Assembly: GCF_910592395.1 (NCBI RefSeq)
Contig: NC_088315.1
Coordinates: 15,733,808 to 15,797,807 of the forward strand
DNA length: 64,000 nucleotides
Reading direction: 5' to 3'
From: Lineus longissimus
Lineage: Eukaryota; Nemertea; Pilidiophora; Heteronemertea; Lineidae
A model generated the notes under the pieces. It was not told the origin of the DNA. It ran no database searches and saw nothing but the letters and a program-made list of their open reading frames with translations. The position numbers and the translations under genes were made by a program. Shown in pieces: positions 4,561-23,101 of the stretch (the stretch's first letter is position 1; each line of letters opens with the position of its first letter).

Positions 4561-4613
4561 AATTAATATGAGCAAGTGAATCCACATGCCTAGGACGATT
4601 TTCCCTAACGTTT

Positions 4614-4619: not shown

Positions 4620-4810
4620 AGAATATATGTATTGTGGTGGTAGGAATCTAGGTAATTCTAAGCTATTTTAACAAAAGCCCTTACAGGCCTTTTTGTCTCA
4701 AATTAGCTTAGAAACCCCTAAGAACCAGACACCACAATACATATATTCTATCATTCTTCAGTGAAGCGTTGCAGTGAAATGGTGAGGGAATACTAGAGTT
4801 CAATGGGTTA
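4620..4810. repeat. Left terminal inverted repeat
   Basis: This 191-bp stretch is nearly identical to the reverse complement of 22883-23095, which carries about 22 extra bp from a local duplication. The outer 130 bp (4620-4749) is itself a palindrome. The first 20 bases recur inverted at 4730-4749, flanking further imperfect pairing around a central CTTACA, so each end could fold into a long hairpin. Confidence 0.95.
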
Positions 4811-4882
4811 TTCCATTAAAATAAATGGTCTTTTTACTGTCTTCATTATCCAAAATTCAAGGAAAAAATTTAAGTAAATTAA

Positions 4883-6244: not shown

Positions 6245-6254
6245 ATAAGTAATT

Positions 6255-7886: not shown

Positions 7887-7934
7887 GTGACCTTCTATCA
7901 AAACAATGTTTAAAAAAATAATTATTATGTAAAT

Positions 7935-9167
7935 ATGAATAAATACATCTCATTAAAAGACTATTATTCTAGTGAGCCGGACTTCGTCCTGAGAGCAGAG
8001 CTCGAGTGGAACAATGAGAATCTTAAAGGATACATTCGTCCTAGGGTTATGGATCGAGCTATGCTCTCAGGACTGCGTCCGACTAGAAATTTTAGTGAAG
8101 AAAATGTCAGCAAGAATTATGACAGTGGGAAATTTGATAAGCCTACTCGAGCTATGCTCTCAGGACGAAGTCTGACTAGGACAAAGTCCCGAGAGCAAAG
8201 CTCGACTGAGACAATCAAAGTAGTCCTGCCAAGAATGAAAGAATATGACGTCAGTACCAACACTAATGCTCAATTCTGCCGTAATTGTAAAAGGTGGACA
8301 CTTTTTGAGTATCAAAAAAACTTGAATTCAGCAAGGTACGCAGCTAAAACTGTGAAGTATCAATTCTGCACCAATTGCAATTCGACTACTTACGACGATG
8401 ATTTTAAAACTCTTGAGATCAATATTGACAACAAGACACGTTACTTTGACAGTATTCTAAGGAAACTTGGATGGAGTCGGCTGTCAGAATCGGCAGTTAA
8501 GTATTTAAAGGACTTTGTGGAAGGGTATTTACAGTGCTACTTTTCAAGTCACAGAAAATGTCTTAGTAAGCAGAGATATGAAAATACTCTTCAGTCAGCC
8601 CTAAAAATGGGTATTAACACTCTCCCCTCTAAGTTTTGTAACCAAGGGTTACATGGTGAAGCCATGCTTTTTAAATTTCACTGTGGAGAATATGATTGGT
8701 TTCTTGCCATTGAATTTATTAACAGGGCAATTGGTAAACCGCAATTAACCGATGAGAATATCACTGACCTTAGACTAGTGTACTATGCTTTCCTTAGATT
8801 TCTGCATTACTGTGGTGTGAAGGTCACCATTAACTACAAGGTATTTTTACACCAAGCCTTTAAAACGCTGAAAATTGATTATGTAATATTTACACCTTTT
8901 TTAACCAACAAGGAGCGAGTAAATGATTTGGAGATATTATGGTATGATTTCACTCAAAGTATTTTCTTCCAGAATTACAAGGTTGAGAAGGAATATGACC
9001 AGGATATTGACAAGCAGTTTGACGTTTTACTGAGTGCCAGTGCAGGTCGAGACATTAACTGCATCAGTAATATTAAGTTTACACCAGCCAGACTTCGTCC
9101 TGAGAGCACAGCTCGAGCCGGACTTCGTCCTGAGAGCATAGCTCGATCTAGTGTTAAGATGCAATAA
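7935..9167 (+). CDS. Unknown Polinton protein carrying several in-frame double-hairpin inserts
   Basis: A 410-residue protein whose start is preceded by TAAAT. Residues ~110-155 hold two CxxC pairs (CRNC and CTNC, about 37 residues apart), suggesting a zinc ribbon. The rest is helical and aromatic-rich with no family recognised. Six double-hairpin cores lie inside the frame, four near the N-terminus (7979-8203) and two at the C-terminus (9090-9144). They encode peptides such as DFVLRAELE, RAMLSGLRPT and AGLRPESIAR. They cluster at the two ends and leave the central region uninterrupted, which suggests selection has kept them out of the folded core. Confidence 0.7.
   Translation: MNKYISLKDYYSSEPDFVLRAELEWNNENLKGYIRPRVMDRAMLSGLRPTRNFSEENVSKNYDSGKFDKPTRAMLSGRSLTRTKSREQSSTETIKVVLPRMKEYDVSTNTNAQFCRNCKRWTLFEYQKNLNSARYAAKTVKYQFCTNCNSTTYDDDFKTLEINIDNKTRYFDSILRKLGWSRLSESAVKYLKDFVEGYLQCYFSSHRKCLSKQRYENTLQSALKMGINTLPSKFCNQGLHGEAMLFKFHCGEYDWFLAIEFINRAIGKPQLTDENITDLRLVYYAFLRFLHYCGVKVTINYKVFLHQAFKTLKIDYVIFTPFLTNKERVNDLEILWYDFTQSIFFQNYKVEKEYDQDIDKQFDVLLSASAGRDINCISNIKFTPARLRPESTARAGLRPESIARSSVKMQ
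7979..8003 (+). repeat. Double-hairpin element 1, plus orientation
   Basis: GGAC-TTC-GTCC, TGA, GAGC-AGA-GCTC, with both 4-bp stems perfect. It lies in frame in the 7935-9167 ORF and encodes DFVLRAELE. Confidence 0.85.
8056..8080 (-). repeat. Double-hairpin element 2, minus orientation
   Basis: GAGC-TAT-GCTC, TCA, GGAC-TGC-GTCC, with both stems perfect. In frame; encodes RAMLSGLRPT. The TGC loop differs from other copies. Confidence 0.85.
8149..8203. repeat. Double-hairpin pair 3, opposite orientations, 30-bp spacing
   Basis: A minus-oriented core (8149-8173, with one stem mismatch GGAC/GTCT) is followed 30 bp later by a plus-oriented core (8179-8203). The same two-core arrangement recurs inside the polymerase at 14173-14227. 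Both cores are in frame. Confidence 0.85.
9090..9144 (+). repeat. Double-hairpin tandem pair 4, 30-bp spacing
   Basis: Two plus-oriented cores (9090-9114 and 9120-9144) with loops TTC/ACA and TTC/ATA encode the C-terminal peptides RLRPESTAR and GLRPESIAR of the preceding ORF. The first stem of the first core has one mismatch (AGAC/GTCC). Confidence 0.85.
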
Positions 9168-9218
9168 AGTTGTGAAAACAGCATTTTGCACTTAACAGTC
9201 ATTTTTCCATAATTTTAA
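9168..9218 (+). promoter_or_regulatory. Short intergenic gap ending in a TTAAATG start context
   Basis: A 51-bp AT-rich gap. The next gene starts in AATTTTAAATG, the TAAATG context shared by most genes of this element. No terminator-like hairpin is in the gap itself, because the hairpins lie just inside the upstream ORF. Confidence 0.4.
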
Positions 9219-10070
9219 ATGAATAATCAGCAAATGAATAGTCAGACATCTGCAGTGATTGAACAACAGATGAAACAGATTGGTGTTATGAGTCCTGAGA
9301 GCTTAGCTCGAGTTGGGGCTTCTAACCAACAGAACACTGGTAGTTACCAACAAAACAGAACTAACTTTCAACAGAACTGCTCTACAAATCAACAAGTTTC
9401 AAACAAGCAGTTGAATAGTTCAAATTTTGTTAATCCTAGTCAAGGAATAGTTAATCCCAGTCAAGGAATAGTAAATTCTAGTTGCCAACTAGGCTCAACT
9501 CGAGCTACGCTCTCAGGACAAAGTCCGACTAGCAATCAACAAAATTTGAACTATTTGACTGATAGTGGCCTTAAAGCCAAACAAGACTTAGAGATTCTAG
9601 TTGCAACTGGTAAAAGCAAGGATTTCCTTAATAAACAAATAACTTTTAATGACTTAGATAATATGACTGAAAAAGAAATCTTAAAACACCATAGAATGTA
9701 TGAAACAAAGATGGCTGCCAGACTTAATGATTCTTTGGGTAAGACAGTAATTAAAGCTTACACTAAATTATCAAGGTGGTTATTACCAATAGATGATGAA
9801 GATAATCTTTATCATGATCTTAGAAATGATTATTTGATAACTAACGAGTTGGATAAATGGCTTGGATGGTTGAGTTTGAGAATGGGACCATTAACTGCAC
9901 TTGCCTCAACAACACTTATTACTTTAGGTCATTGTCATGAGGAATCATCTATGACTGCATCGAGTATGACTGCATCAAATATGAATACACCAAATATGAC
10001 TGTCTCTGAATGTGACAAATCAATAGATGAAAGTCTAGATATCACAGGTAGTGATGATAAAGAAGACTAA
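9219..10070 (+). CDS. Gln/Asn-rich Polinton protein, unknown function
   Basis: 283 residues. The first ~110 are a low-complexity Gln/Asn/Ser segment with a repeated NPSQGIV, and they hold two double-hairpin-derived peptides (SPESLAR and STRATLSGQSPT). Residues ~115-235 form a compact domain with Trp/Leu-rich helices (KAYTKLSRWLLPIDDEDNLY, NELDKWLGWLSLRMGPLTAL) that looks conserved but that I cannot name. The C-terminus has Met-Thr-Ala-Ser repeats and an acidic tail. The start is set by TTAAATG. Confidence 0.7.
   Translation: MNNQQMNSQTSAVIEQQMKQIGVMSPESLARVGASNQQNTGSYQQNRTNFQQNCSTNQQVSNKQLNSSNFVNPSQGIVNPSQGIVNSSCQLGSTRATLSGQSPTSNQQNLNYLTDSGLKAKQDLEILVATGKSKDFLNKQITFNDLDNMTEKEILKHHRMYETKMAARLNDSLGKTVIKAYTKLSRWLLPIDDEDNLYHDLRNDYLITNELDKWLGWLSLRMGPLTALASTTLITLGHCHEESSMTASSMTASNMNTPNMTVSECDKSIDESLDITGSDDKED
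9288..9309 (+). repeat. Double-hairpin element 5, eroded
   Basis: Only the second stem-loop is intact (GAGC-TTA-GCTC, 9299-9309). The first arm has lost its GGAC half but keeps GTCC. In frame; encodes SPESLAR. Confidence 0.7.
9502..9526 (-). repeat. Double-hairpin element 6, minus orientation
   Basis: GAGC-TAC-GCTC, TCA, GGAC-AAA-GTCC, with both stems perfect. It shares extra left flank (GGCTCAAC) with the copy at 10514-10538, so these two are close relatives. In frame. Confidence 0.85.
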
Positions 10071-10119
10071 ATTAACCTGGTTATGAGAACATAGTTCGAA
10101 TTAAATTCGGCCAAGATAA

Positions 10120-10626
10120 ATGGAACTTGAAACTGTAACTGATACTACTCGAGCTATGCTCTCAGGACAAAGTCCGACTAAAGTTTCAGTGTCTAAGAAA
10201 CCTCGATCAGAGAAACAATTAGCATGGTCTAGAGAACTGGGTAGAAGATCTAAGGAATTTAAGAGGATAAAAAAGGATAAGACGACATTTAAAGTACAGG
10301 ACTCCTCACCAAACAACAGAGTTGTGGAAAAGGAGGAAGAAGAATTAGAGGAAGAAGAACCACAATCTCAAAATACTGATGTATCACTGCGTGAATCTAG
10401 TAGTAATACTTATGTCTATGTACTAGGTTTAGGTGCAATTATTTTAGCATCATTTATCATGTTTAAGAAACTTCCTAAAAAAGTAAGTAAAGAGCAGCGA
10501 TCAGGCTCAACCCGAGCTACGCTCTCAGGACAAAGTCCGAATGAAGCAGTCATGAAGGGATCAATTAACCCTCTTGTTAAACCTGTAGTTAAAGAGAAGA
10601 AATGTACTATTCCTTTAATGGAATGA
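10120..10626 (+). CDS. Small single-pass membrane protein of the Polinton
   Basis: 168 residues, with the start in GATAAATG. It has a basic, helical N-terminal segment (EKQLAWSRELGRRSKEFKRI), an acidic stretch, then one transmembrane segment (YVYVLGLGAIILASFIMF, ~103-121), a basic stop-transfer and a short tail ending near LVKPVVKEKK. Double-hairpin cores are inserted in frame before the basic helix (10151-10175) and after the membrane segment (10514-10538). Small membrane proteins of this size are common in Polintons. The function is unknown and a virion-membrane or assembly role is speculative. Confidence 0.7.
   Translation: MELETVTDTTRAMLSGQSPTKVSVSKKPRSEKQLAWSRELGRRSKEFKRIKKDKTTFKVQDSSPNNRVVEKEEEELEEEEPQSQNTDVSLRESSSNTYVYVLGLGAIILASFIMFKKLPKKVSKEQRSGSTRATLSGQSPNEAVMKGSINPLVKPVVKEKKCTIPLME
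10151..10175 (-). repeat. Double-hairpin element 7, minus orientation
   Basis: GAGC-TAT-GCTC, TCA, GGAC-AAA-GTCC, perfect stems. In frame near the N-terminus of the small membrane protein; encodes RAMLSGQSPT. Confidence 0.85.
10514..10538 (-). repeat. Double-hairpin element 8, minus orientation
   Basis: GAGC-TAC-GCTC, TCA, GGAC-AAA-GTCC, perfect stems. In frame near the C-terminus of the same membrane protein. Closest relative of element 6. Confidence 0.85.
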
Positions 10627-10641
10627 TCTAATCAGGTGGTC

Positions 10642-10756
10642 CGACTTCGTCTTGAGAGCTCTGCTCGAGTCAAGCTTTGTTCTCTTGACCTTGTCCTAGT
10701 CCGACTTCGTCTTGAGAGCTCTGCTCGAGTCAGACTTCGTCTTGAGAGCAAAGCTC
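10642..10756. repeat. Four-unit double-hairpin array at a convergent gene junction
   Basis: Cores begin at 10642, 10672, 10702 and 10732, a strict 30-bp period. The second is in the opposite orientation and eroded. First stems are partly weakened (CGAC/GTCT, AGAC/GTCT) while GAGC/GCTC stems are kept. The array fills the gap between two convergent genes and its last unit codes the final residues of the minus-strand gene (IELCSQDEV). A 3'-end-forming role for both genes is possible. Confidence 0.85.
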
Positions 10757-11680
10757 GATTCTTAACTCTAAAGAAACCTCTGTTCCTCTGAAATTAACTA
10801 GCTTACCATTCTCATCAGTGATTTCGAATTTTATGTGATTAGTACACTTATTTATCGTTTTCTTACAATTCGGTTCGTATCGCTGCATTTTTATTTGGTC
10901 ACCATCTTCTACAGGTATGATGCAGAAAATGTTAGATGGTTTATTGTTGTAGAGGGTCTTAGCTTTGTCAACCAAATTAGCTTGCAGGAATAGATATTTC
11001 CTGTAAAAGTTGAGTGGTCTTGTGGAGTAGTATTTTCCTTTCTTGGTGAATTTAGTTTGCTTAAAGCCAAACCACTCATTCACCACTGTGAGCTGTTTTT
11101 CTATCACCTCTCTTATGGTTTTGCTTATTTGAAAACCTTCTGTGTTTCTCTCAATCTTGATTTTTTCATTTTTATCTAACTTGTCTACTTTCAGAGGGTA
11201 CTCTTTATCCTCTGTAAGTTCAAGGGTTATGTAATTATTGTTATCACAGTAAATTTTCACATGGCTTATTCCAATTTCTTTTATGTATTTTTGCCATACC
11301 TCACAAAACTCACTTAAACTAAAATGTCGAGAATATGGAAATGTGTATTGAGTAATGGTGTCTTTAGTTGTGGTAGAATCATTTTCCAAATGCCGTTCGC
11401 AAATTTTCATGACTTCCTTTTCAAGTGTATCTGTTTCAAGTCCAGGAGCAAATAATGTCCTACACCATAATTGTTTATCTAAGGGCTCATGTGTTGTAAT
11501 TCTGGTTATTTCGACTAGAAATGAGAAAATCCTTACTCCCTCTGGTAGAAAATCACCTGTCCACCATGAATTGTAAAAGGTTATCGATTTCAAAGTAATG
11601 GATTTTATGTCTAATTGGTCTGTTAAGTAGTACTCAAATTTGGCTTCATTAAATTCTTGTTCATTGATTATGAAGTCCAT
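10730..11680 (-). CDS. Penton-like minor capsid protein, second copy (penton-like 2)
   Basis: 316 residues on the minus strand. The N-terminal DIKSITLKSITFYNSWWTG and the C-terminal IKFEITDENGKLVNFRGTEV match the corresponding ends of the shorter penton-like protein at 20322-21089 (ACSITLTFAVIPCTFYNIS and LNIRLTDEKGDIIDLNGHNV). That is the layout of the single-jelly-roll penton fold of Polintons and adenoviruses. The middle region is longer and different. It could be a paralogous vertex or fibre-associated protein. The last residues are encoded by a double-hairpin unit, so its natural C-terminus has been altered. Its start follows AAATAGAA. Confidence 0.6.
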   Translation of the reverse strand: MDFIINEQEFNEAKFEYYLTDQLDIKSITLKSITFYNSWWTGDFLPEGVRIFSFLVEITRITTHEPLDKQLWCRTLFAPGLETDTLEKEVMKICERHLENDSTTTKDTITQYTFPYSRHFSLSEFCEVWQKYIKEIGISHVKIYCDNNNYITLELTEDKEYPLKVDKLDKNEKIKIERNTEGFQISKTIREVIEKQLTVVNEWFGFKQTKFTKKGKYYSTRPLNFYRKYLFLQANLVDKAKTLYNNKPSNIFCIIPVEDGDQIKMQRYEPNCKKTINKCTNHIKFEITDENGKLVNFRGTEVSLELRIELCSQDEV

Positions 11681-11736
11681 TTCTATTTAATTCAAGATAT
11701 TTATTGAATTTAATAAATTTTAATCTAATAAATAGA
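11681..11736. promoter_or_regulatory. Divergent promoter between penton-like 2 and DNA polymerase
   Basis: A 56-bp AT-rich spacer between two divergent start codons. Both starts have the same context, AAATAGAA(A)TG, which also precedes the major capsid gene at 22752. This differs from the TAAATG context of most other genes and may mark a separate expression class. Confidence 0.45.
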
Positions 11737-12446
11737 ATGACTGATAAGAATCAGAAAATACTTTGCACTACATGTGACAAGTACATATCCTACAATAATA
11801 TGGCTATTCACAGGAGAACCAAAGGTCACTTAAGTAAATTAAATCCGGATTATGTCCCTATTGCTCAACCCCGAGCCCCATCACTGATCCCTAAAACTAT
11901 GGATAAGAAACTTGCATTTGAGGAAAATGAGCTAGATGGCATAAAGAAAGTGAGTGGAATAGAAATAGTAAAACAATTTGGCAAGCCTGTAGTCACCATT
12001 AGTTTGAAGATTGACAGAGAAGCTAAACAAGTGTATGAATACAGAGATAAATTAGAGGAGGTATTATTTCAACTCAATGATTACCATCACAAAATTAGCA
12101 TATCAGTATTTGCTCAGTTTGATCGTCAGGGTGAAAGTGTAACACACCCCATACAGTCTCCAATGGAAAGCATAATTTCAAGGAACCAGGCAATTTATGC
12201 CATAACCAACCAGTTAAACTACATTAAGACACAGATTGAGGAAAGGTACTTTCAAGGTTCTGGACTTACTTTAAATAAAATAGAGTCTTGTAACATGACC
12301 ATCTGTTCTTACAAGAGGTGTAAAGGTGGTCATTACACTAAATTACCATTTAAAACAAAAGCAGTAATAAATGTGGAATCAAATGACAATAAATGTTTTC
12401 TCTGGTCTTTATTGGCCGCTAAATATCTGAAAGAAAATCCAGAGAC

Positions 12447-12471
12447 GGACTTTGTCCTGAGAGCAGAGCTC
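12447..12471 (+). repeat. Double-hairpin element inside the polymerase N-terminal region
   Basis: GGAC-TTT-GTCC, TGA, GAGC-AGA-GCTC, perfect stems. In frame; encodes DFVLRAELE about 30 residues after the DNKCF motif, probably in a surface loop. Confidence 0.85.
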
Positions 12472-14172
12472 GAGAGTACATTCAATATCACTACTGATAT
12501 CAAAATCAAATCATTTCCTGTATGTATTCAAAAGGATATCCCTAAGATAGAGAGTGATAATAATCTCAAGATTAATGTGTTCAAGTTAGAGAACGAATGG
12601 GCTAAGAGCACCTATGAGGCAAAACTAGAACCTCTCTACCTGTCCAAGAATTATGATGATGATGATGTCATCGATCTGTTGTATTTCAAGGACCATTTCA
12701 TGTACATAAGAGACATCAATCTTTTCTTCAGGACACTAGCTCATAGAGTGTATCTTTGCAGGAGATGCATGAATTACTTTTACAGGAAGTCAACACTAGA
12801 TAAACATAAAAAGAAATGTGGAGAACACGATTACTGTAAGATTACTTTGCCTCCACCTAACAGTAAATGGTCACAAATTAAATTTGAAAAACACTCATTC
12901 AAAAATAGAGTTCCGTTTGTTATCTATGCTGATTTCGAAGCGATAAGCGAACCTTGTTCTTCTGCCGAAGGCAACATACCAGTAGTATCAGTAGAGCCAC
13001 CTATGATGAAAGAACCGAGTTCAAAGAAACTTTTTAAACAAAATGCATCAGCTGTTGGTGTTTATGTTCACTCAGACTACACACACCTTTACAGTAGCCA
13101 GTATGTGTCTCACAGGGGTGCTGATGTTGTAGATGTGTTCTGTAATTGGTTAATCAGGATGGAAGAACAATTCTCTAATTTATTGAACTGTAACTTTCCT
13201 CTAACAATGACAGATGAAGACTGGCATAAATATCAATTAGAAACACATTGTTACTATTGTAATCAACCTTTGGGATATGACAAGGTCAAGGATCATGATC
13301 ACTACTGTGGTAGATATCGAGGTGCTGCTCACAACTCGTGTAATTTGAATGAAAAGAAAGCTATGTTTGTTCCAGTGTTTTTTCACAATCTCAGTAATTA
13401 CGATTCTCACTTATTTATTAAAGAATTAATGAATAAGCTACCGAAGTACAAGAAACTGAAAATACTTGCCAAAACATCAGAGGAATACATTTCATTTCAG
13501 TTCGGTTGTTTCAGGTTTTTGGACTCGTACAGATTCCTGCAGTCCAGTTTAGACAACATAACCAAATCAATGTTGGATGATGATTTTAAAATTACCAGAC
13601 AGCTGTTCCCAAATACCACTGACTTTAAGCTATTGAGGAAGAAGGGTTCAGTACCTTACTCTTTTTACACATCACATGAAAGCTACAATGTTACTTACCT
13701 AGAAAAGTCTATGTTTTTTGACGAATTGAAAAATGAAATGGCACCTGATTCTGCCTATGATGAGGCTAAGGTAATATGGGATCATTTCAAGATCAGGAAT
13801 CACGGTGAGTTCCTTGACCTCTACCTCAAAACTGATGTGATCCTTTTAGCTGATTTATTTGAGAAATTCAGGGATGTCAATTTGAACTACTTTCAGATAG
13901 ATCCATGTCACTGTTACTCGGCACCAGGCCTAACCTGGCAAGCTGGTTTGAAGTACACAGGAATAAACCTAGAACTACTGACTGATACCAACATTTTACT
14001 TACTTTTGAGAAAGCAATACGAGGTGGAATTTCGGGTGTTATGGGAACAAGACATGTCAAGGCAGATGAACACCACAAACTACTCTACGTAGACGCAAAT
14101 AATCTCTACGGCTGGTCCATGATGGAACCTCAACCCTATGGTAGTTTTGAAATGATAGATATTGATCCACTC

Positions 14173-14227
14173 GAGCTATGCTCTCAGGACAAAGTCCGAC
14201 TAGGACAAGGTCCCGAGAGCAAAGCTC
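14173..14227. repeat. Double-hairpin pair inside the polymerase palm region
   Basis: A minus-oriented core (14173-14197) and a plus-oriented core (14203-14227) with 30-bp spacing, the same arrangement as 8149-8203. They add about 20 in-frame residues (LELCSQDKVRLGQGPESKAR) shortly after the DANNLYGW catalytic motif. Confidence 0.85.
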
Positions 14228-14848
14228 GACTTAACATGAATGTTATCAGTAAAGAGCAGATTATGGCAATTCCAAGTGATAGTGAAGTAGGCTACTTTTT
14301 AGAGGTTGATTTGGAGTATCCAGGAAATATTAAATTTAAGTCAAGGAACTTTCCATTCTGTCCCGAATCTCTCTTTATTGAAGATGATGAATTAAGTCCT
14401 TACCAGAGAGAGTTACTGGGCGATGATAAAAGATCAAATGTAGAGAAACTAATACTAACACAAAAGGATAAAACTAATTACATAGTGCATTACAGAATGC
14501 TACAATTTTACCTAAAGCACGGAATGGTACTTAAGAGGGTTCATTCAGTGATAAGCTTTAAACAATCAAAGTGGTTAGCACCATACATTGATTTTAACAC
14601 TAAAAGACGTATGGATTCTAAGACTGATTTTGAGAAAGACTATTTTAAACTGATGAACAATGCGTTCTATGGAAAAACTTGTGAGAATGTAAGGAACAGG
14701 GTTGAAATTGAATTTGTATCGGACGGGGAGAGAGCCAGGAATGTAATGGCCAATCCCAGGTTTTCATCGATATGCGTATTTGACGAACATAATGCTGCTA
14801 TTAGCATGAGGAAAACATCAATGAAATTCAACAAACCAATCTACATAG

Positions 14849-14988
14849 GAGCTTCAGTACTTGAATTGTCTAAATTATTAATGTATGAATTCTATTATGA
14901 AGTTCTTCAACCGTACTTGAGCTTCAGTACTTGAATTGTCTAAATTATTAATGTATGAATTCTATTATGAAGTTCTTCAACCGTACTT
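14849..14988 (+). repeat. 70-bp tandem duplication breaking the polymerase
   Basis: Bases 14849-14918 are repeated exactly at 14919-14988. Seventy is not a multiple of three, so the duplication shifts the frame and leads to a TGA at 14932-14934. The exactness means it is very recent or an assembly artefact. Confidence 0.9.
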
Positions 14989-15236
14989 TGGTGAGAAAAA
15001 TATTGAATTGCTGTATCTAGATACAGATTCCTTTGTACTTAACATTAATACTGATGACTTAACTAAAGACTTAAAGGAGTTGAGACACTATTTTGACTTC
15101 AGTAATTATCCAAAAGATCATCCACTCTATGATACCAGTAAGAAGAAGGTACCAGGCTACTTTAAGGATGAGCTAGGAGGAGTAGAGATGACTGAATTCA
15201 TTGCCCTGAGAAGTAAGATGTACGCTTACAGGACCA

Positions 15237-15291
15237 AGACTATGTCTGGAGAGCAAGGATCGACTGGGACTACGTCCCGAGAACAGAGTTT
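15237..15291 (+). repeat. Double-hairpin pair near the polymerase C-terminus, with covarying stems
   Basis: The first core (15237) has AGAC-TAT-GTCT, a perfect stem with both arms changed from GGAC/GTCC. Its second stem-loop is eroded (GAGC-AAG-GATC). The second core, 30 bp later, has GGAC-TAC-GTCC and GAAC-AGA-GTTT. Both are in frame in the polymerase. Confidence 0.8.
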
Positions 15292-15583
15292 GACAAAAGA
15301 TTACGATTCTAAGAAATTGAAGGGTATTGCCAAGAATGTAGTAAGGAGAAATATCTCATTTGATGACTATGTTGATTGTCTTGAAAAGAGTAGGTCATTT
15401 TACCACAAGATGAGACACTTAAGATCAGATAAACACCAAATCTATTTGGAAGAAGTTGACAAAAAAAGCCTCAGTCCTTTTGATGACAAGAGGTTCATAC
15501 TTGAAGATGGAATAAGCACCTTACCATTTGGAATGTATTATGAAGGCTACATAGATTACAGCGATTCAAACTTCGCTTGAGTC

Positions 15584-15670
15584 GGACTACGTCCAGAGAA
15601 CAAAGTTCGAGTTGTAAAAATCATTATTCGGACTTTGTCCTAGTCGAGCTTTGACCTGAGAGCATAGCTA
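15584..15670. repeat. Double-hairpin cluster at convergent junction, left part
   Basis: A core at 15584-15608 has GGAC-TAC-GTCC, AGA, GAAC-AAA-GTTC. Both stems are perfect and the second is a full GAAC/GTTC replacement of GAGC/GCTC. Eroded stem-loops follow (GGAC-TTT-GTCC at 15630-15640; GAGC-ATA-GCTA near 15660-15670). Confidence 0.8.
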
Positions 15671-15778
15671 GATTAAACTAATGAATAGGGTGGTGCTGAT
15701 GGTAGTGTTACTTGGTGAAATTCATCCCTAACACCGAAGTCATGATAATAGTGATAGTGATACACCACATTAGGATTA

Positions 15779-15849
15779 GGACGTAGTCCGGGTCCGACTT
15801 TGTCCTGAGAGCATAGCTCGAGTCGAACTTTGTTCTCTGGACGTAGTCC
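15779..15849. repeat. Double-hairpin cluster at convergent junction, right part
   Basis: In order: GGAC-GTA-GTCC (15779), CGAC-TTT-GTCC + GAGC-ATA-GCTC (15795-15819), then 30 bp later GAAC-TTT-GTTC + GGAC-GTA-GTCC (15825-15849). The GTA loops are the reverse complement of the TAC loops found in other copies. Confidence 0.85.
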
Positions 15850-15863
15850 GGGTCCTGTTTGAT

Positions 15864-16523
15864 TTACTGAACTTTTAGTTTTTCTAGCATCTCTGTCTGT
15901 GCTAGTTTTTTTCCTTCTTCTAAAAAAGTCTTCTTTAAAGACTCTACATCAACAGCTGAACTTGCCTCCCTTTGTTTTTTCCTAATGGCATTTTTCATCG
16001 AAATGTATTTCTCCTTCTCCTTGAGAATCAAAGTAAACTCATCTGTAGATATGTGAGAATCGGTTAAGGCTTTACTAACCAAATCATTGATTGTGTTCAG
16101 TTTTGAAATTGCCAACATTCTGATATTCTCATGCTTTTCAATTTTCTTAAGAATATTCTTTTTCTCCCAGCCTAAGGCTGATGAAATAATGGCACTACCT
16201 ATTGTTACGCCACCCAAAGCTAAGCCTATCGGTGCCGTGATGACACCAGCTAGAGCGGAAACACCAACAGATCCGGCTGCAACGCTGGCAAAATTAAGGA
16301 AATGGCTAATGCCAGTAATTACGCTAAATGCTTTTTTGTACTTTGAAAATATCTTTCTTCTAAATTCAATCTCGCTTTCTAAGAAACTCTTAACCTCACA
16401 TATTTGTTGTAGTCTGAAAGCCTGAGGGTTACTTTCTGTATGCTTTTCAGACCGTTCATAGTTCAAATGACTTTCAGAGTTTAAATTACTTAAATCTGGA
16501 TAAACCTTATTGTCTCCATCCAT
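15864..16523 (-). CDS. Polinton two-TM helical membrane protein
   Basis: 219 residues, with the start in CTAATTAAATGG. The order is a basic amphipathic helix (EIEFRRKIFSKYKKAFSVIT), a glycine/alanine-rich double hydrophobic segment (~85-125: SVAAGSVGVSALAGVITAPI and on), then a long helical region (KHENIRMLAISKLNTINDLV; DEFTLILKEKEKYISMKNAI). From memory, similar proteins are common in metazoan Polintons and have no assigned function. The hydrophobic hairpin between helices suggests membrane insertion. It is transcribed toward the polymerase and lies 4 bp downstream of the next minus-strand gene. Confidence 0.7.
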   Translation of the reverse strand: MDGDNKVYPDLSNLNSESHLNYERSEKHTESNPQAFRLQQICEVKSFLESEIEFRRKIFSKYKKAFSVITGISHFLNFASVAAGSVGVSALAGVITAPIGLALGGVTIGSAIISSALGWEKKNILKKIEKHENIRMLAISKLNTINDLVSKALTDSHISTDEFTLILKEKEKYISMKNAIRKKQREASSAVDVESLKKTFLEEGKKLAQTEMLEKLKVQ

Positions 16524-16527
16524 TTAA

Positions 16528-16797
16528 TTAGTGGGAATAACTAGAATCAGTTGTTCTGTCATTTCTAGTGTTTAGTGTTGATCCTACAGACACTACAGGT
16601 TTTTGAAGTACATTAAATTTTAAAGGTTTTTCTGACCCAACAGGTTTTTCTGTCCCAACAGGCACAGCAGGTTTTAAAGGTTTTTCGGGACCAGGCTCCA
16701 ACTTTGACTCTACTTCTGCCTCTAATTCTCTATGAAATCGTTCTAATCTTTCTTTCCAATTACGTGGTCGTTTTGTGTAACCCCAAGTTCTATTCAT
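16528..16797 (-). CDS. Small Pro/Lys-rich protein, unknown
   Basis: 89 residues, with the start in TTAATTAAATG. It has a basic N-terminus (WGYTKRPRNWKERLERFHRE) then imperfect repeats of EKP(L/V) and PVG units. It is probably disordered and no family is recognised. The start context matches its neighbours and the gaps on both sides are very short, which supports it as a real gene in the minus-strand cluster 15864-17941. Confidence 0.55.
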   Translation of the reverse strand: MNRTWGYTKRPRNWKERLERFHRELEAEVESKLEPGPEKPLKPAVPVGTEKPVGSEKPLKFNVLQKPVVSVGSTLNTRNDRTTDSSYSH

Positions 16798-16816
16798 TTA
16801 ATTAAGTAAAATAAAA

Positions 16817-17941
16817 TCAATTCACTGCAAAGAGTAAATTTATTTCAAGTCTATTATTCAACTTAATCATCTCGTTTATGATTTCTGTCTGACTACATAT
16901 GTTAATGTTCTGGTTCATTCTCATGTTATTATTTAAATTCGATAATCTATCAAGCAGAATCATATTTTCATCACGAAGATAATCCCCGAAATGCTGTGAT
17001 ATCACTATTTTCCAATTTGGTATTACATCCTGGTCTCGAAAGACAAACCAGTTTTCACTTCTCATTTTTACCATGAAATCCATTGACCTATCCAATTGAT
17101 CCTTAAATAGTGTGTAGTCTACTTTAGCACTCTTCTGTCTGTTTTGTGTTTTAGACATTGGTCTAATGTTAAACCAAGCAAAGCACAGTTCAGGTTTATC
17201 TTTGAATTCCTTGATTGGTAAGACATGATCCAACTCTTCTTCTACTATTCGAACTCTGTTCTCGGGACTTTGTCCTATTGGAGATAGACTCCTCTGGTAC
17301 TTTAACCACTGTGAGAAGAAACTGTCTGTACATCCTAGATTGAATGATGAATTACCGTTACACTCTCCCTTAGAAATGCGGTTTAGACCAACTCTAATTT
17401 TGTGTCTGTCTCTATTACCATTTTGGTCAAGGTAATCCTTTTTGTAATATGAATTAAAACATGATCTACAGTTACCTCTATTTCCGTCTTTACCAAATTC
17501 ACCATCACTTAGTAATTTATTTTCATAACATTTATTACATACCTTGATTTTACTTGAACCACATTCTTTACAGTAATCAAGTAGTTTATTACGCCTGTTC
17601 TTTTCAAAATTAATTTCAGGTTTCTTTTCACAGCACTTAACACAATAAATTGTATGTTGATTTTCCATGTTTTGATTCATCATATTATTCTGATTTATCA
17701 TATTTTGATTTTCCATGTTTTGATTTTCCATATTTTGATTTTCCATGTTTTGATTTAAGATAAACTGATTTATCATATTTTGATTTAACATAATCTGATT
17801 TATCAGATTTTGATTTAACATATTATTTTGATGCAAATAATACAAAAACTTCTGAATATTTTGATTCATCATATTATCATGATTCATCATATCATTTTGA
17901 TTCATCATACCATTTTGATTATCAAATATTGCTCCATCCAT
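16817..17941 (-). CDS. HNH endonuclease-like protein with zinc knuckles and NQNM repeats
   Basis: 374 residues. The N-terminal ~100 are Asn/Gln/Met repeats (MNQNM, MENQNM). Four CxxC pairs follow (CVKCCEKK, CKECGSSK, CNKCYENK, CRSCFNSYY), then a segment reading EELDHVLPIKEF, CFAWFNIRPM and NRQK. That is the DH...(C/N)W-N-(I/L)RP...N-K pattern of HNH nucleases, with the Asp-His pair and the downstream Asn visible. A double-hairpin core is inserted in frame just before the Asp-His motif (17251-17275). The start follows AAAGAAATGG, not TAAATG. The role could be genome processing or homing-type cutting. The active site is not proven. Confidence 0.65.
   Translation of the reverse strand: MDGAIFDNQNGMMNQNDMMNHDNMMNQNIQKFLYYLHQNNMLNQNLINQIMLNQNMINQFILNQNMENQNMENQNMENQNMINQNNMMNQNMENQHTIYCVKCCEKKPEINFEKNRRNKLLDYCKECGSSKIKVCNKCYENKLLSDGEFGKDGNRGNCRSCFNSYYKKDYLDQNGNRDRHKIRVGLNRISKGECNGNSSFNLGCTDSFFSQWLKYQRSLSPIGQSPENRVRIVEEELDHVLPIKEFKDKPELCFAWFNIRPMSKTQNRQKSAKVDYTLFKDQLDRSMDFMVKMRSENWFVFRDQDVIPNWKIVISQHFGDYLRDENMILLDRLSNLNNNMRMNQNINICSQTEIINEMIKLNNRLEINLLFAVN
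17251..17275 (-). repeat. Double-hairpin element inside the HNH gene
   Basis: GAAC-TCT-GTTC, TCG, GGAC-TTT-GTCC. Both stems are perfect, with the covariant GAAC/GTTC form. It is in frame on the minus strand and encodes GQSPENRVRI close to the HNH core. Confidence 0.85.
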
Positions 17942-18029
17942 TTCTTTCTTTATTTAGTAGGACATTTTTTTTTTAAATTACGTTTTTCGAACTTGTTCTT
18001 GTGACTTAAGTCATTTTAGAGACTTTATT
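17942..18029 (-). other. Short AT-rich gap
   Basis: An 88-bp gap between the integrase stop and the HNH-protein start, both on the minus strand. It holds a poly-A/T tract and no hairpin element. Confidence 0.4.
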
Positions 18030-19181
18030 TCATTTCAATGATTTGATATCAGAAACTGGTAACCATTCATTGAACTTATCACTGTAACCCTTCCACTTCA
18101 CTAATCCGTATTTCTTGCCTTTACTGGTCTTGTACCTTAGGATTTTCTCGATCTTATACTCTAGCTGGTCAGGATTAGGAACATAGCTCAATTCCTCTTC
18201 ATAGAAATATCCTTGAATTTCTTCTTTGTGGTAATCCTCAAGCTGGTAGACGATAGGGTGAGTAAATATGATCTGTTTGATTTGGAACACCTCCTCAGTG
18301 TAGTTGGGCATGTAACCTTTACCGAAAATGGACTTGTACTTTGAAATTCTTACACTGTCACCTACTTTGTACTTTGGATCACCAAATGTCTCTTTGAGGT
18401 GAAGACCGTAAAGATTGTACCACACTGTTCCTTCGTTTTCCATCTTTCTGGCGTCTACAGGTTTCATACCTATTGATGAGTGAAATGTGTTATTGTAGCC
18501 GCTGACCAGGTCATCCAGAACGTCAATCCACTTGTCAGTCTCCTTAGCGGTGAAATAACGCCACATTTTTTCTTTAAGGGTTCTATTGAATCTCTCTACT
18601 ACTGCTGCCTTCTTATCAGATTTTGTGGAGAACCAGTCTATGTCATTTTCTGTTAAAAGTTCCTTGAAGTGTTTGTTGTAAAATTCTTTACCGTCATCAA
18701 ACTGGATTTTCGTTGGTTTTGCTTCCTCAAATATCACTTTAAATGCATCTCTGATTTCTTCTCCCCTCTTACTCTTAACTGCTAGAGCCCAAGAAAAACG
18801 ACTAAATAGATCTATGACTGTTAAAATGAATCTGAAACCCTTATTCTGTTTCTCAAATTTTTGCATGTCAACCAGATCTGCTTGCCATTGTTGATCGATG
18901 TACGATACCATTGTCTTCCTGAAGGTGAATTTCTTAATGGCCGGTTTGTGTAGTTGGTGAGTTGGTAGTGTTTCTAGAAATTCTTTCACTTCTTTTTTTT
19001 TAATAAGTTTTCCTGAGCGGGACTTTGTCCCTAACAACGAAGTTGTGCTCTGCTCTCGTGACGAAGTCATATCTTCCTTGACCTGTTTCCAGATTTTACT
19101 CAAAGAACTGTAAGCCACGGGACTCTCAGGGTTGTAGTACAAATCCCTTAGATACTGCTGTGTGTCATCCTTTACATTCAT
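18030..19181 (-). CDS. Polinton integrase with C-terminal chromodomain
   Basis: 383 residues. The retrovirus-type DDE core is visible as WQADLVDM (D102), IQFDDGKEF (D162) and VVERFNRTLK (E196), which inserts the linear element and creates the 6-bp target duplication. A zinc-binding-like N-terminal domain is reduced. An SH3-like region follows the core, and the last ~45 residues (KIEKILRYKTSKGKKYGLVKWKGY and FNEWLP) form a chromodomain with the aromatic Tyr/Trp cage residues, probably for targeting methylated histones. A double-hairpin cluster (19020-19069) adds a Ser/Thr-rich insert at residues ~40-57. The start codon forms a palindrome with the ATPase start. Confidence 0.92.
   Translation of the reverse strand: MNVKDDTQQYLRDLYYNPESPVAYSSLSKIWKQVKEDMTSSREQSTTSLLGTKSRSGKLIKKKEVKEFLETLPTHQLHKPAIKKFTFRKTMVSYIDQQWQADLVDMQKFEKQNKGFRFILTVIDLFSRFSWALAVKSKRGEEIRDAFKVIFEEAKPTKIQFDDGKEFYNKHFKELLTENDIDWFSTKSDKKAAVVERFNRTLKEKMWRYFTAKETDKWIDVLDDLVSGYNNTFHSSIGMKPVDARKMENEGTVWYNLYGLHLKETFGDPKYKVGDSVRISKYKSIFGKGYMPNYTEEVFQIKQIIFTHPIVYQLEDYHKEEIQGYFYEEELSYVPNPDQLEYKIEKILRYKTSKGKKYGLVKWKGYSDKFNEWLPVSDIKSLK
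19020..19069. repeat. Diverged double-hairpin cluster in the integrase N-terminus
   Basis: Three short stem-loops: GGAC-TTT-GTCC, CAAC-GAA-GTTG and TGAC-GAA-GTCA. All stems are perfect, but the last two have both arms changed from the consensus, which is the clearest compensatory change in the element. Encoded in frame as SSREQSTTSLLGTKSRSG. Confidence 0.75.
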
Positions 19182-19188
19182 TTAAATG
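19179..19188. promoter_or_regulatory. Shared start palindrome CATTTAAATG of integrase and ATPase
   Basis: The reverse-strand ATG of the integrase (19181-19179) and the plus-strand ATG of the ATPase (19186-19188) are only 4 bp apart, inside one perfect 10-bp palindrome. Each strand therefore reads TTTAAATG. The two genes cannot have separate 5' leaders unless these overlap the opposite gene, so a bidirectional initiator at the start codon is likely. Confidence 0.7.
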
Positions 19189-19806
19189 AGTGAAGTATTT
19201 ATTTACGAGCCACACAATATGTTAATTTCTGGTGTTACCAATTGTGGTAAGACATATTTTGCCCTTGACCTCTTAGAAAAGGAGTATCGGCACAAGTTCC
19301 AGAACATAGTCATTTTCTGTCCAACATATTTCAACAATAAGACATATGAAAGGAAATGGATTTACCAAGACAAGAACGTCTACATAGTTAATCCCGAAGC
19401 TGTGGCCAGTAATTTGGACCTTGTGCTTCAGTTTGCTACTCTGACCTTTGCTGGTTCTAACACATTATTCCTCATTGATGACTGTGCTAATTTGAGAGAC
19501 ACAAAAAAGAAGGTGTCCGAGTTATGTAATCTTGCCTTTTCCGGCAGGCACTACAATCTCACTGTTTGGTTACTAGTTCAGAAGTACAATTCAGTTGTTA
19601 AGGACTACAGAGAGAACATAAGAATTTTAGTATTATTTTTTAATAAGGATGAATCAGCCATGAAAGATGCCTTAGAAGAAAACAGTGTTATTCCTAAGGA
19701 GAAAAGACAGTACTACATAGAAGAACTTAAGATGAAAAAAGGATCAAAACTGATCATTAGACTACAACATCCATTTGGATTTACTCTTTCACATCAAAAA
19801 TCTTAG
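19186..19806 (+). CDS. Genome packaging ATPase (FtsK/HerA, A32-like)
   Basis: 206 residues, typical for Polinton packaging ATPases. Walker A is GVTNCGKT (residues 16-23) and Walker B is TLFLIDDC (93-100), followed by an Arg-containing helix region (AFSGRHYNLTVWLLVQKYNS) with the sensor-like Gln. In DNA viruses with jelly-roll capsids, this family drives genome translocation into the procapsid. There is no hairpin insert. It is divergent from the integrase and convergent with the next gene. Confidence 0.9.
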   Translation: MSEVFIYEPHNMLISGVTNCGKTYFALDLLEKEYRHKFQNIVIFCPTYFNNKTYERKWIYQDKNVYIVNPEAVASNLDLVLQFATLTFAGSNTLFLIDDCANLRDTKKKVSELCNLAFSGRHYNLTVWLLVQKYNSVVKDYRENIRILVLFFNKDESAMKDALEENSVIPKEKRQYYIEELKMKKGSKLIIRLQHPFGFTLSHQKS

Positions 19807-19824
19807 TCCCGCTTCTGATCATCA

Positions 19825-19856
19825 GGACTGTGTCCGATCATCAGGACTGTGCCCGA
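19825..19856 (+). repeat. Hairpin-related repeat at a convergent junction
   Basis: GGAC-TGT-GTCC (19825-19835) and a second, slightly eroded GGAC-TGT-GCCC 20 bp later are separated by CCGATCATCA. The unit resembles half a double-hairpin with a new partner (TGATCATCA is itself a palindrome). It fills the 34-bp gap between the ATPase and the next minus-strand gene and extends into the latter's C-terminus. Confidence 0.65.
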
Positions 19857-20299
19857 TCAGTTGTCTTAGTCTTTCTAACCCTAGTAAAATAATAAATTAT
19901 TAACCCTAAACCACTAAGTCCTAGGATAATCCATAGGTACTCGTATTTCTTCATTTCATCACTAGGTTGGTAGTAATCACTTAATTGTGGTCGCTGAGGT
20001 AGTACAATAGTTCTTTCTGGATGTAAATGATTGTAAACAGTAAGTGCTGAATCAGTATTGTTAAAATCAATAGAAGCGTCTCTTTCTCTCTTTAATTCAA
20101 GATTAACAAAGTCAATAGTACTCTTTCTATGCTCCTCCCATTCGGTTGAAGCTTTTTGTAATTGCTCCTGAGCCAAATCATGTCTTTTCACTTCAGTCTC
20201 ATAGCCATTCTTGTCTAGTTTTTTAAAAAGGTAACCGGATCCAGTGAATGCTAATCCATTGATTATTGCAGATCCAAATAACATGCCAATGCCAGCCAT
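19841..20299 (-). CDS. Polinton two-TM protein with charged middle, unknown function
   Basis: 152 residues, with the start in GGAATTAAATGG. A short N-terminal hydrophobic segment (GIGMLFGSAIINGLAFTGSGYLF) precedes a charged helix (KRHDLAQEQLQKASTEWEEH), and a second membrane segment lies near residues 122-139 (WIILGLSGLGLIIYYF) with a basic tail. The order of hydrophobic, RHDLA-type helix and TM is a recurring Polinton protein, from memory, without assigned role. Placement between ATPase and penton suggests a virion or assembly function. Confidence 0.7.
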   Translation of the reverse strand: MAGIGMLFGSAIINGLAFTGSGYLFKKLDKNGYETEVKRHDLAQEQLQKASTEWEEHRKSTIDFVNLELKRERDASIDFNNTDSALTVYNHLHPERTIVLPQRPQLSDYYQPSDEMKKYEYLWIILGLSGLGLIIYYFTRVRKTKTTDRAQS

Positions 20300-20321
20300 T
20301 TAATTCCAATGAATTTTAATT

Positions 20322-21089
20322 TCAATGATGTGTCCCTGAGAGCATAGCTCGAGTTAATACCAATTGGTACTGTACATTATGACCATTAAGATCGATGATG
20401 TCACCTTTTTCATCAGTTAAGCGAATATTCAGCTTATTGAATCTTGGTTTACAGGGAATTGCTATTGGTTTCTCAAATGTGTATGCTATTAAATCCCCAA
20501 AATTAGCTTCCTTTATTGGTCTTGTGGTTAGCACATCAGATGCTTCACCATTACTTAATACACTATTAGATTCGATTATGTCACAGTGAAAAACAAAATG
20601 GTTAATTGGTCTAAAATTGATGGGTTTCTCGCTTACAACATCATCCTTACTTTTATTGTCTAAAGGATAAGGCCATTCTGATTTCATGCCAAATAATTCA
20701 TTACTTTTACCAAGAAAATAGATCTGATAATGCGCCTCATTTTTTCTCTTTAGGAAGTGTAAGATGGCCTTACCTGTTGGTTCTTCAAGGTCAAATCTGA
20801 CAGCACCTCTACTCATACTATTTTCTTTCAACTTATCCGCAAATACTTTTGAAAAGCTCTGTAGGTCATAGAGACCATCTGGTAGCGTAATCTCTGCCAC
20901 ATCAAAACCCTTAACTTTGATTCGGTTATTCTCCCTGGCTGCACTTATGTTGTAGAATGTACAAGGTATTACTGCAAAAGTTAAAGTGATGCTACATGCA
21001 TCCTGAATTTCAGTCTTGAGATTGACTGTTAAATCACTTGAACTCTGATCTGGATAGTCACTTGAATCTATGTTCATTACAGTAATCAT
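20322..21089 (-). CDS. Minor capsid (penton-like) protein
   Basis: 255 residues, with the start in AGTAAATG. The N-terminus (SSDYPDQSSSDLTVNLKTEI, then ACSITLTFAVIPCTFYNIS) and the C-terminal NIRLTDEKGDIIDLNGHNV are typical of the single-jelly-roll penton of Polintons, which builds capsid vertices with the hexon-like protein. The gene sits beside the major capsid gene on the same strand, as in other Polintons. The final residues (TRAMLSGTHH) come from a double-hairpin remnant, so the C-terminus has been replaced. Confidence 0.8.
   Translation of the reverse strand: MITVMNIDSSDYPDQSSSDLTVNLKTEIQDACSITLTFAVIPCTFYNISAARENNRIKVKGFDVAEITLPDGLYDLQSFSKVFADKLKENSMSRGAVRFDLEEPTGKAILHFLKRKNEAHYQIYFLGKSNELFGMKSEWPYPLDNKSKDDVVSEKPINFRPINHFVFHCDIIESNSVLSNGEASDVLTTRPIKEANFGDLIAYTFEKPIAIPCKPRFNKLNIRLTDEKGDIIDLNGHNVQYQLVLTRAMLSGTHH
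20333..20350 (+). repeat. Double-hairpin remnant at the penton 3' end
   Basis: GTCC, CTGA, GAGC-ATA-GCTC remains; the GGAC arm is lost. It overlaps the penton stop region and supplies its last codons. Confidence 0.7.
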
Positions 21090-21194
21090 TTACTTAAGCA
21101 AATTTTCGTTTTCAAATTTACCTTTTATCAAATAAGTAAATTATTCTTACTTCATAATATTTCTGGGTAGGATTCCTTGATCGTAAAGGTACTC
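21090..21194. other. Intergenic gap without recognisable features
   Basis: About 105 bp of AT-rich sequence between the penton start and the small TM protein stop. It includes TTAAGC and TAAGTAAATT motifs. No hairpin element. Confidence 0.4.
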
Positions 21195-21383
21195 TCATGT
21201 TCCATTACTAATAGCTACAGTTCCTCCCAGTTTAAGAATTTCCTCTAGGGTGGCCTGACTTGGGGGACCAATATTGATTCTCAAGAACCTTTTCAGTAAC
21301 ATAGAGTAACCAATTGTTGTTGATGCCAACAGTAAACTTTGATACAGTGTATTTATGATATCTTTCTTTCCTGGTGTATCCAT
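21195..21383 (-). CDS. Small hydrophobic Polinton protein (62 aa)
   Basis: 62 residues, with the start in GTAATTAAATGG. A helix-rich segment (TLYQSLLLASTTIGYSMLLKRFL) is followed by a Pro-containing loop and a second weakly hydrophobic helix (EEILKLGGTVAIS). Small membrane proteins of this form lie between penton and hexon in other Polintons, from memory. The TAAATG context and the conserved position support it as real. Function unknown. Confidence 0.6.
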   Translation of the reverse strand: MDTPGKKDIINTLYQSLLLASTTIGYSMLLKRFLRINIGPPSQATLEEILKLGGTVAISNGT

Positions 21384-21427
21384 TTAATTACTTAGAAAAT
21401 CACTAGTAAAACTCATTTATCTAGTAT

Positions 21428-21500
21428 TCAGTGTTGGAGCGAACTTTGTTCTTGCAGCACCTCAGTGCTGGAGCGAACTTTGTTCTTGCAGCACCTCAGT
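21428..21500. repeat. 34-bp tandem repeat with nested hairpins upstream of the capsid stop
   Basis: Two units with a 34-bp period (GGAGCGAAC at 21436 and 21470). Each holds GAAC-TTT-GTTC. The second lies within a longer GTGCTG...CAGCAC stem, so it can form a nested hairpin. It is related to the GAAC/GTTC variant of the double-hairpin family but has a different outer stem. It lies in the 3' region of the major capsid gene and encodes its last residues. Confidence 0.75.
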
Positions 21501-22752: not shown

Positions 22753-22882
22753 TTTCTATTTATTTACTAGTAAAATTATGTACATGCAGTGAACAGTGCC
22801 AACATCATATATCAGGTAAAATGCACGGAAAAAAGCTATTGACGTGTACTTTCTGTTGGAATACAGTAAGTAATGATTACAT

Positions 22883-23095
22883 TAACCCATTGAACTCTAG
22901 TATTCCCTTACCATTTCACTGCAACGCTTCACTGCAACGCTTCACTGGGAATCTCATGAATGATAGAATATATGTATTGTGGTGTCTGGTTCTTAGGGGT
23001 TTCTAAGCTAATTTGAGACAAAAAGGCCTGTAAGGGCTTTTGTTAAAATAGCTTAGAATTACCTAGATTCCTACCACCACAATACATATATTCTG
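22883..23095. repeat. Right terminal inverted repeat
   Basis: 213 bp matching the reverse complement of the left TIR. The difference is an extra ~22 bp caused mainly by a 13-bp tandem duplication (CACTGCAACGCTT twice, near 22918-22943). The outer ~130 bp (22965-23095) is a palindrome beginning and ending with the same 20-base motif. Confidence 0.95.
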
Positions 23096-23101
23096 GTGGT
23101 T
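23096..23101. repeat. Right 6-bp target site duplication (GGTGGT)
   Basis: Identical to 4614-4619, directly after the terminal ...ATATATTCT. Confidence 0.95.

Follow-up and report, generated by a model that had tools for sequence, protein, structure and literature searches.

The closest described counterparts of the sequence family considered here are small palindromes of organelles and bacteria. The GC42 clusters of yeast mitochondrial DNA (42 nt) are flanked by direct repeats of AG or ACT, are polymorphic for presence and absence and have stems that are more conserved than the loops; intron-encoded endonucleases have been proposed as their helpers, and 82 of their 89 positions are intergenic, the rest being in introns, with no tie to a reading frame (PMC4478555). 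The Rickettsia palindromic elements (105-146 bp, bacterial) are selfish sequences, which are located in frame in protein genes and are translated, and for which the target duplication is entered as a question mark (PMC2229807). The double-hairpin elements of Allomyces organelle DNA have two hairpins, reportedly without flanking duplications, and their mobility, like that of the hairpin-forming elements of sponge mitochondrial DNA, was inferred from related genomes (PMC2800124). In these papers, the mode of movement is unsettled for the yeast, sponge and Allomyces palindromes. The family described here occurs in a Polinton of the nemertean Lineus longissimus, in a stretch of 64,000 nucleotides (contig NC_088315.1, positions 15,733,808 to 15,797,807), which is referred to as the window. 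Its units lie beside a duplicated triplet, change the length of a site in steps of one size, leave reading frames open and are confined to Polintons in the sample studied. They are probably copies of a non-autonomous micro-transposon of Polintons, which acts like the yeast mitochondrial GC clusters.

When compared by description, the Polinton units share with the GC clusters the tiny size, the palindromic make-up, the AGT/ACT triplets and the variable number of units per site (0-7); unlike the GC clusters, they are not mitochondrial (the Polinton copies sit on contigs of many megabases), have a core of 27 bp and are found mostly in genes. By this analogy, the yeast cluster would be the nearest parallel in mode of working. 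In their location within genes, the units resemble the Rickettsia elements; at the level of DNA, 106 of 115 coding copies are open, and such copies may be translated as those elements are. The Rickettsia elements have a long stem-loop, whereas the Polinton unit has 27 bp and two 4-bp stems. The two hairpins are shared with the Allomyces elements, but the Polinton units show a target duplication. The Submariner elements of Pandoravirus salinus, which are miniature inverted-repeat transposable elements (MITEs) of the Tc1/mariner type (243 bp long, with a TA duplication and with inverted repeats that measure about 100 bp), with 10 of 30 copies in predicted open reading frames (ORFs) and perhaps mobilised by the amoeba host (PMC4495683), are a further case of non-autonomous elements, which multiply in the genome of a eukaryotic virus. 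Inverted repeats within animal protein-coding genes are known from nematomorph mitochondria, where they are, unlike the Polinton units, perfect and long (up to 284 bp) (PMC6649704). The PARCELs are palindromic coding repeats in tandem arrays, with ties to mobile elements in some taxa, and encode protein repeats of 25 residues (PMC2996958), unlike the 10-residue insertions considered here. No report of such a unit family in Polintons was found in the top-ranked titles and abstract openings of the open-licence literature searched.

In the window, the pattern GGACNNNGTCCNNNGAGCNNNGCTC has 10 exact matches and 24 matches at up to three mismatches, compared with 0.00 and 0.16 expected from shuffled sequences, and all these copies fall within 7979-19069. 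With a weight-matrix scan, 26 units in 17 arrays are found between 7979 and 20350, neighbouring units being spaced 30 bp, and zero units are found in the remainder of the window. An earlier note on this DNA, made from the sequence alone, had counted at least 25 double-hairpin copies in both orientations, within genes and in the gaps between them, and none elsewhere in the window, and this is borne out by the scan and by the positions of the units. Its span was drawn too far, up to 21500, because this takes in a different 34-bp tandem repeat (21428-21511). Chance or low complexity as the source of the units is ruled out by the shuffles and the scan. The units are listed below, where L numbers denote other Polinton copies and TSD is the target-site duplication.

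7979..8003, plus strand: unit in ORF3 (frame DFVLRAELE), TSD AGT, empty in L021 and L034
8056..8080, minus strand: unit in ORF3, flanks AGT/ATC, empty allele ATC, 3-bp target duplication absent
8149..8203, minus then plus strand: two units in ORF3; other copies hold 0, 1 or 2 units
9090..9144, plus strand: two tandem units in ORF3, TSD AGC; 0, 1, 2, 3, 4 or 7 units elsewhere
9285..9309, plus strand: decayed unit in ORF4, from the weight-matrix scan
9502..9526, minus strand: unit in ORF4, TSD AGT, empty in L022 and L020
10073..10097, plus strand: diverged double hairpin TAAC-CTG-GTTA/TGA/GAAC-ATA-GTTC, found by structure, a presumed member
10151..10175, minus strand: unit in ORF5, TSD AGT (ACT on the plus strand)
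10514..10538, minus strand: unit in ORF5
10642..10756, strands plus, minus, plus, plus: four-unit array between the convergent ORF5 and ORF6, the last unit being inside the 3' end of ORF6
12447..12471, plus strand: unit in pPolB
12949..12973, minus strand: diverged double hairpin TGCC..GGCA/GAA/GAAC..GTTC, found by structure, probably a member
14173..14227, minus then plus strand: two units in pPolB; gap of about 20 columns in relatives; 0, 1 or 2 units elsewhere
15237..15291, plus strand: two units in the second ORF of pPolB; 0, 1 or 2 units elsewhere
15584..15670, plus strand: units at 15584 and 15646 and a lone hairpin at 15630, between convergent genes
15779..15849, mixed strands: lone hairpin at 15779 and units at 15795 (plus) and 15825 (minus), between convergent genes
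17251..17275, minus strand: unit with CGA spacer (subfamily B) in ORF9, TSD AAT
19020..19069, minus strand: unit at 19045 and a further hairpin at 19020, near the N-terminus of the integrase
20326..20350, plus strand: decayed unit at the C-terminus of ORF 20322-21089

The inserted core is 27 bp long, C-[GGAC NNN GTCC]-TGA-[GAGC NNN GCTC]-G, and with the 3-bp target triplet it makes a step of 30 bp. The length of the core follows from the overlap of the flanks in pairs of filled and empty sites; these were single-unit sites and empty partners preselected for an exact difference of 30 bp (38 comparisons, which form 17 groups; two of the groups represent one window site, 17361). The flank overlap, which is the duplication, measures 3 bp in seven groups, 4 bp in three, 5 bp in one and less than 3 bp in six. 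Read along the element, the duplicated triplet of the 11 groups that have one is AGT in seven, AGC, AAT and ATT in one each and, one base off register, GAC in one (site 15237). The 25-nt unit of the earlier note is therefore a real double-hairpin pattern, but the inserted unit is the 27-bp core, which includes an outer C..G, plus the 3-bp duplication. The outer C..G is present in 72 of the 110 single units, and the flanking triplets are equal in 56 of these 110, compared with a mean of 21.9 and a maximum of 30 when shuffled. The 232 units fall into two subfamilies, split by the spacer (TGA versus AGA/CGA). The TGA-spacer units with equal triplets have AGT (53), AGC (24), ATT (14) or AGA (13) and never ACT, and the AGA/CGA-spacer units with equal triplets have ACT (14), ATT (7), AAT (5) or AGT (1), where all these counts take in orthologous copies and are not independent. 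Since the triplets are specific to the subfamily, orientation is tied to the target.

PIF/Harbinger-like transposases make 3-bp target duplications, and the units could in principle be an ordinary MITE moved by such a host transposase. A 3-bp target duplication is indeed seen, and a duplication of constant length, as is characteristic of a MITE, is found (at least 3 bp) in 11 of the 17 preselected comparisons. The target is asymmetric (AGT for the TGA-spacer units), the 27-bp element has only the ends CGGAC and CGAGC as 5-bp imperfect inverted repeats, and there are zero copies outside Polintons in the sample described below, all of which argue against this origin, and it is considered very unlikely. 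Hairpin transposons of the IS200/IS605 type insert without a target duplication, unlike the Polinton units, which duplicate their target.

The stems covary. In the 26 window units, 91.3% of the stem cells pair (as high in 1 of 500 shuffles) and seven cells are altered on both sides (0 of 500); the count of pairs with a change on both sides and the count of pair types are not above those of the shuffles (203/500 and 500/500, respectively). For the 84 distinct 25-mers obtained from the 232 units, 93.2% of the cells pair, compared with at most 89.4% in shuffles, and 33 cells are altered on both sides, compared with a shuffle mean of 6.5, a maximum of 12 and 3-6 for slid partners, these covariation counts being inflated by the relatedness of the units. 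The usual stem swaps are GAGC/GCTC into GAAC/GTTC and GGAC/GTCC into AGAC/GTCT or TGAC/GTCA. A single unit folds into the expected double hairpin, but with the same energy as shuffles, and the inverted pair at 14173-14227 folds into one long hairpin (z -8.1). No Rfam family reaches its gathering score across 4600-23100. The covarying stems and the asymmetric target would be consistent with a hairpin RNA that is copied into DNA at a nick, as has been proposed for the Allomyces elements (PMC2800124) and the yeast GC clusters (PMC4478555). Among the alleles listed, tails and truncation series are absent and the length of the insert is constant, and this RNA-mediated route is judged highly improbable.

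Filled, empty and multiply filled alleles are found at the same sites. Flank-anchored gaps of 15, 45, 75, 105, 135 and 225 bp correspond to 0, 1, 2, 3, 4 and 7 units, and filled and empty alleles often have flanks that are 99-100% alike. Some sites show other spacings through extra indels, such as the frame-shifting gap of 44 bp in L036 at site 9502. The alleles of site 10151 were counted by exact-flank searches of the whole genome, and 61 empty alleles are found, so that the clean empty sites among close Polinton copies anticipated by the earlier note do exist. Flanks separated by 1-30 bp gave 66 matches, 65 of them having exactly 30 bp and one being a 15-bp duplication beside an allele already scored as empty, and flanks separated by 31-60 bp gave 44 matches, 43 having exactly 60 bp and one 49 bp. 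The second unit of the 60-bp alleles is not always the same element. At the protein level, the pPolB pair at 15237-15291 amounts to 20 extra residues with respect to 13 of 14 public relatives and to 19 with respect to the remaining one. At the integrase insert (19020-19069), the protein is shorter by 19 residues in 8 of 18 relatives, and most of the others have unrelated variable residues. The insert of the integrase relative P0132 (Lineus longissimus, 76% identical) matches in make-up that of the divergent Polinton L025, in which (at about 854-1004) a 15-bp half-unit, TTGAGAGCATAGCTC, is tandemly amplified in frame within the integrase gene. A search for traces of the element peptide in 240 protein relatives gave three one-mismatch matches, below the six in shuffled proteins, and the P0132 match is kept solely for its position at the insertion site. 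In L017 (at 3639) and L020 (at 2479), the gene segment between two units (window 8056-8203) is gone, which fits recombination between units.

It has also been considered that no dedicated enzyme is involved, and that template switching, microhomology and gene conversion at AGT during Polinton replication spread the units, with arrays arising by slippage or unequal exchange. This would agree with the 30-bp steps in array size, with sites that are common to the copies while the alleles are mosaic, with the loss, expected from recombination between units, of the gene segment that separates sites 8056 and 8149 (in L017 and L020), with the tandem half-units of L025 and with the absence of AGT from the empty allele of site 8056. 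Slippage alone would not be expected to give a constant 27-bp core with a duplicated triplet that varies by site (AGT, AGC, AAT, ATT), nor 29 different contexts in one Polinton, and enzyme-free spread is regarded as quite unlikely.

The family extends far beyond the window. In a search of the 391,118,348-bp assembly, 985 + 975 = 1,960 exact copies of the pattern are found, compared with 0 for the reversed control. Of 529 candidates in the search for the packaging ATPase, 150 gave scored matches, with identities of 98-100%, which means that the genome has at least 150 Polintons, and the suggestion of the earlier note that the family is confined to one Polinton is not upheld. The flanks were checked for the first 100 of the 1,960 exact copies, which apparently follow each other by position and fall within the first 14.2 Mb of contig C1; the 20 stretches around them hold 102 exact matches, three of them outside the first 100. 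Ninety-nine of the first 100 lie whole in these stretches, with Polinton DNA beside each, and the hundredth straddles a stretch border. The stretches are 74-97% identical to the window Polinton, and all 207 units in them are flanked by Polinton-homologous DNA on one or both sides; a similar density in unrelated host DNA, which had been named beforehand as speaking against a Polinton family, is not seen in this sample. The strict pattern has 0 matches in IMG/VR. With a looser pattern, two records with one copy each were obtained, in the same 49-bp context, which are taken as chance. Seven distant Polinton-like contigs (L001-L007) have no unit of the family and no double hairpin of the spacing 4-3-4/3/4-3-4. 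Other hairpin spacings are mildly in excess in L001 and L002, which means little alone because such an excess is also seen outside the window Polinton (for example, 5 versus 0.5-1.0).

Twelve further Polintons, picked by the ATPase alone on other chromosomes, all carry units within the 3.1 kb examined. This presence in 12 of 12 and the maintained stems might point to functional sites under selection (for packaging, recombination, RNA processing or protein linkers) instead of parasites. Many sites are empty in nearly identical Polintons, and the sites are irregularly placed, in both orientations and with 25 of 29 within genes, which argues against such sites, and this is the least probable of the alternatives. 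Of the two possibilities raised by the earlier note, tiny parasites of a virus-like element are supported, whereas roles in packaging or RNA processing gain no support here. A role as terminator at the 3' ends of genes was rejected, most sites being coding. The filled/empty differences between copies that are 99% identical can come from recombination between Polintons. The system has at least 150 closely related carriers, in which the same sites may be empty, filled or multiply filled, so that insertion and loss, the choice of target and frame selection are measurable.

By 14-bp clustering, with which some neighbouring sites may be one, 141 of 159 arrays (233 units in all) were mapped to 29 window sites, of which 25 are in ORFs; as coding DNA makes up 88.8% of the Polinton, genes are not avoided. 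The unit-free ORFs are ORF2, ORF8, the ATPase, ORF12 and the capsid gene (4,629 of about 16,400 coding bp), few stretches covering the last, and ORF6 carries units only at its 3' end (the array at 10642). Since 27 + 3 = 30 bp is ten codons, insertion preserves the reading frame. Four of the nine coding copies that do not read open (of 115) reflect the natural stop of ORF 20322-21089. Long open ORFs with units are found in other copies, such as ORF3 of L031 (430 residues, seven units at one site); for ORF3 of the window Polinton, which holds five units, none of 2,273 candidates is a homologue at E 0.001. In the same-strand frame in which TGA is a stop, the TGA spacer is present in 0 of 25 units (9 sites), compared with 147 of 184 other units, and in the frame in which the loop ATA makes TAG, ATA is present in 0 of 23 units (4 sites), compared with 83 of 186. 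When the count is restricted to single units and made by site, the respective forbidden frame has TGA at 0 of 4 sites and ATA at 0 of 4, compared with 22 of 25 and 14 of 25 site entries in the other frames. Clearly, the variants are sorted by frame in the case of TGA; for ATA the sorting is weak.

The carrier has the features of a Polinton/Maverick: pPolB, an rve integrase, an A32-like ATPase, long inverted terminal repeats (ITRs) and a 6-bp target duplication, with a weak capsid match.

4620..23094, no strand: Polinton (18.5 kb), ITRs at 4620-4761 and 22953-23094 (142-nt arms, 99% complementary), 6-bp target duplication GGTGGT at 4614-4619 and 23095-23100
11704..15580, plus strand: pPolB in two ORFs, split by a tandem duplication; Endonuclease_7 segment below the Pfam cut-off
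16817..17941, minus strand: ORF9, endonuclease-VII-like (PHROG 1035 endonuclease VII, E 3.4e-9)
18030..19181, minus strand: integrase (rve + chromo), Pfam
19186..19806, plus strand: A32-like packaging ATPase, Pfam
21496..22752, minus strand: major capsid protein, weak Pfam match below the cut-off

The copies presumably spread within the Polinton population while Polinton DNA replicates or is exposed, by means of an enzyme that would cut with a 3-nt stagger and act on or near hairpin DNA. The nearest candidates for this enzyme would be the endonuclease-VII-like proteins of the Polinton, namely ORF9 and the pPolB segment. Branched DNA is resolved by the endonuclease VII of phage T4, and by this likeness a hairpin-cutting enzyme may, at most, be available in the same Polinton; ORF9 is only a candidate for the mobilising nuclease. 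The flanking AGT could serve as a new target, which together with unequal crossing-over would generate tandem arrays; recombination between Polintons would then mix filled and empty alleles. Copies in genes would be translated and selected for an open frame, and selection would retain the insertions in tolerant loops and termini. For a micro-transposon of this kind, the 27 + 3 size makes coding DNA a safe home, and the virus-like element would carry a swarm of parasites of its own, which sit in its genes for replication, integration and the endonuclease.

Several observations weigh against a micro-transposon. The 3-bp duplication is absent from 6 of the 17 filled/empty groups, which are decayed copies, sites with an altered empty partner and site 8056, where AGT flanks one side and the ATC of the target the other. 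The 12 further Polintons gave no new site among the mappable arrays (two arrays were unmappable), which speaks against recent bursts and indicates that the sites are mostly old, with most insertions inherited in common, and have been reshuffled by recombination. Part of the sorting of TGA by frame is due to array geometry, because subfamily-B units that stand next to a reversed unit are placed in the frame concerned. Neither a transposase nor an autonomous partner turned up, no search having been aimed at one. The assignment of ORF9 comes from a single PHROG match, the nuclease match being absent from the sequence searches of Pfam, NCBIfam and PDB, and its candidate role from co-residence in the same Polinton. 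A bolder proposal is that the units are a Polinton-specific transposon, possibly the smallest one that makes a true target duplication, which fits most frames with its ten codons and is cut or pasted as a cruciform by the endonuclease-VII-like resolvase. This is unlikely; if true, the units would be parasites that live on another parasite, are compatible with genes and diversify viral proteins by ten-residue steps.

Some other features of the Polinton and of the window were noted. The pPolB gene, broken by the tandem duplication in the window copy (11704-15580), is uninterrupted in some other Polinton copies. Each of the two terminal repeats forms, by itself, a long and imperfect hairpin (4616-4753 and 22965-23094; arms of 57-61 nt, 75% complementary). 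The N-terminal tail of ORF9 is asparagine-rich and derives from 15- and 18-bp repeats (17653-17924). The 34-bp tandem repeat at the 3' end of the capsid gene (21428-21511) consists of GAACTTTGTTC plus CAGCAC-CTCA-GTGCTG hairpins, and one or two repeats are present in two other Polinton copies. Between the ATPase and ORF12 (19817-19859), there is a 19-bp repeat with GGACTGTGTCC, whose copy number differs among Polintons and which adjoins a double-hairpin unit in some copies. Protein P0121, filed under Bartonella sp. CL29QHWL, is an integrase fragment (94% identical) that starts directly after the position of the insert, and it probably stems from contamination by a host whose Polinton is near-identical. 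Elsewhere in the window, host tandem repeats of about 301-302 bp are found at 42284-42962 and 51652-52412, and at 58000-64000, where two long ORFs overlap each other, the GC content climbs from about 0.40 to about 0.6.

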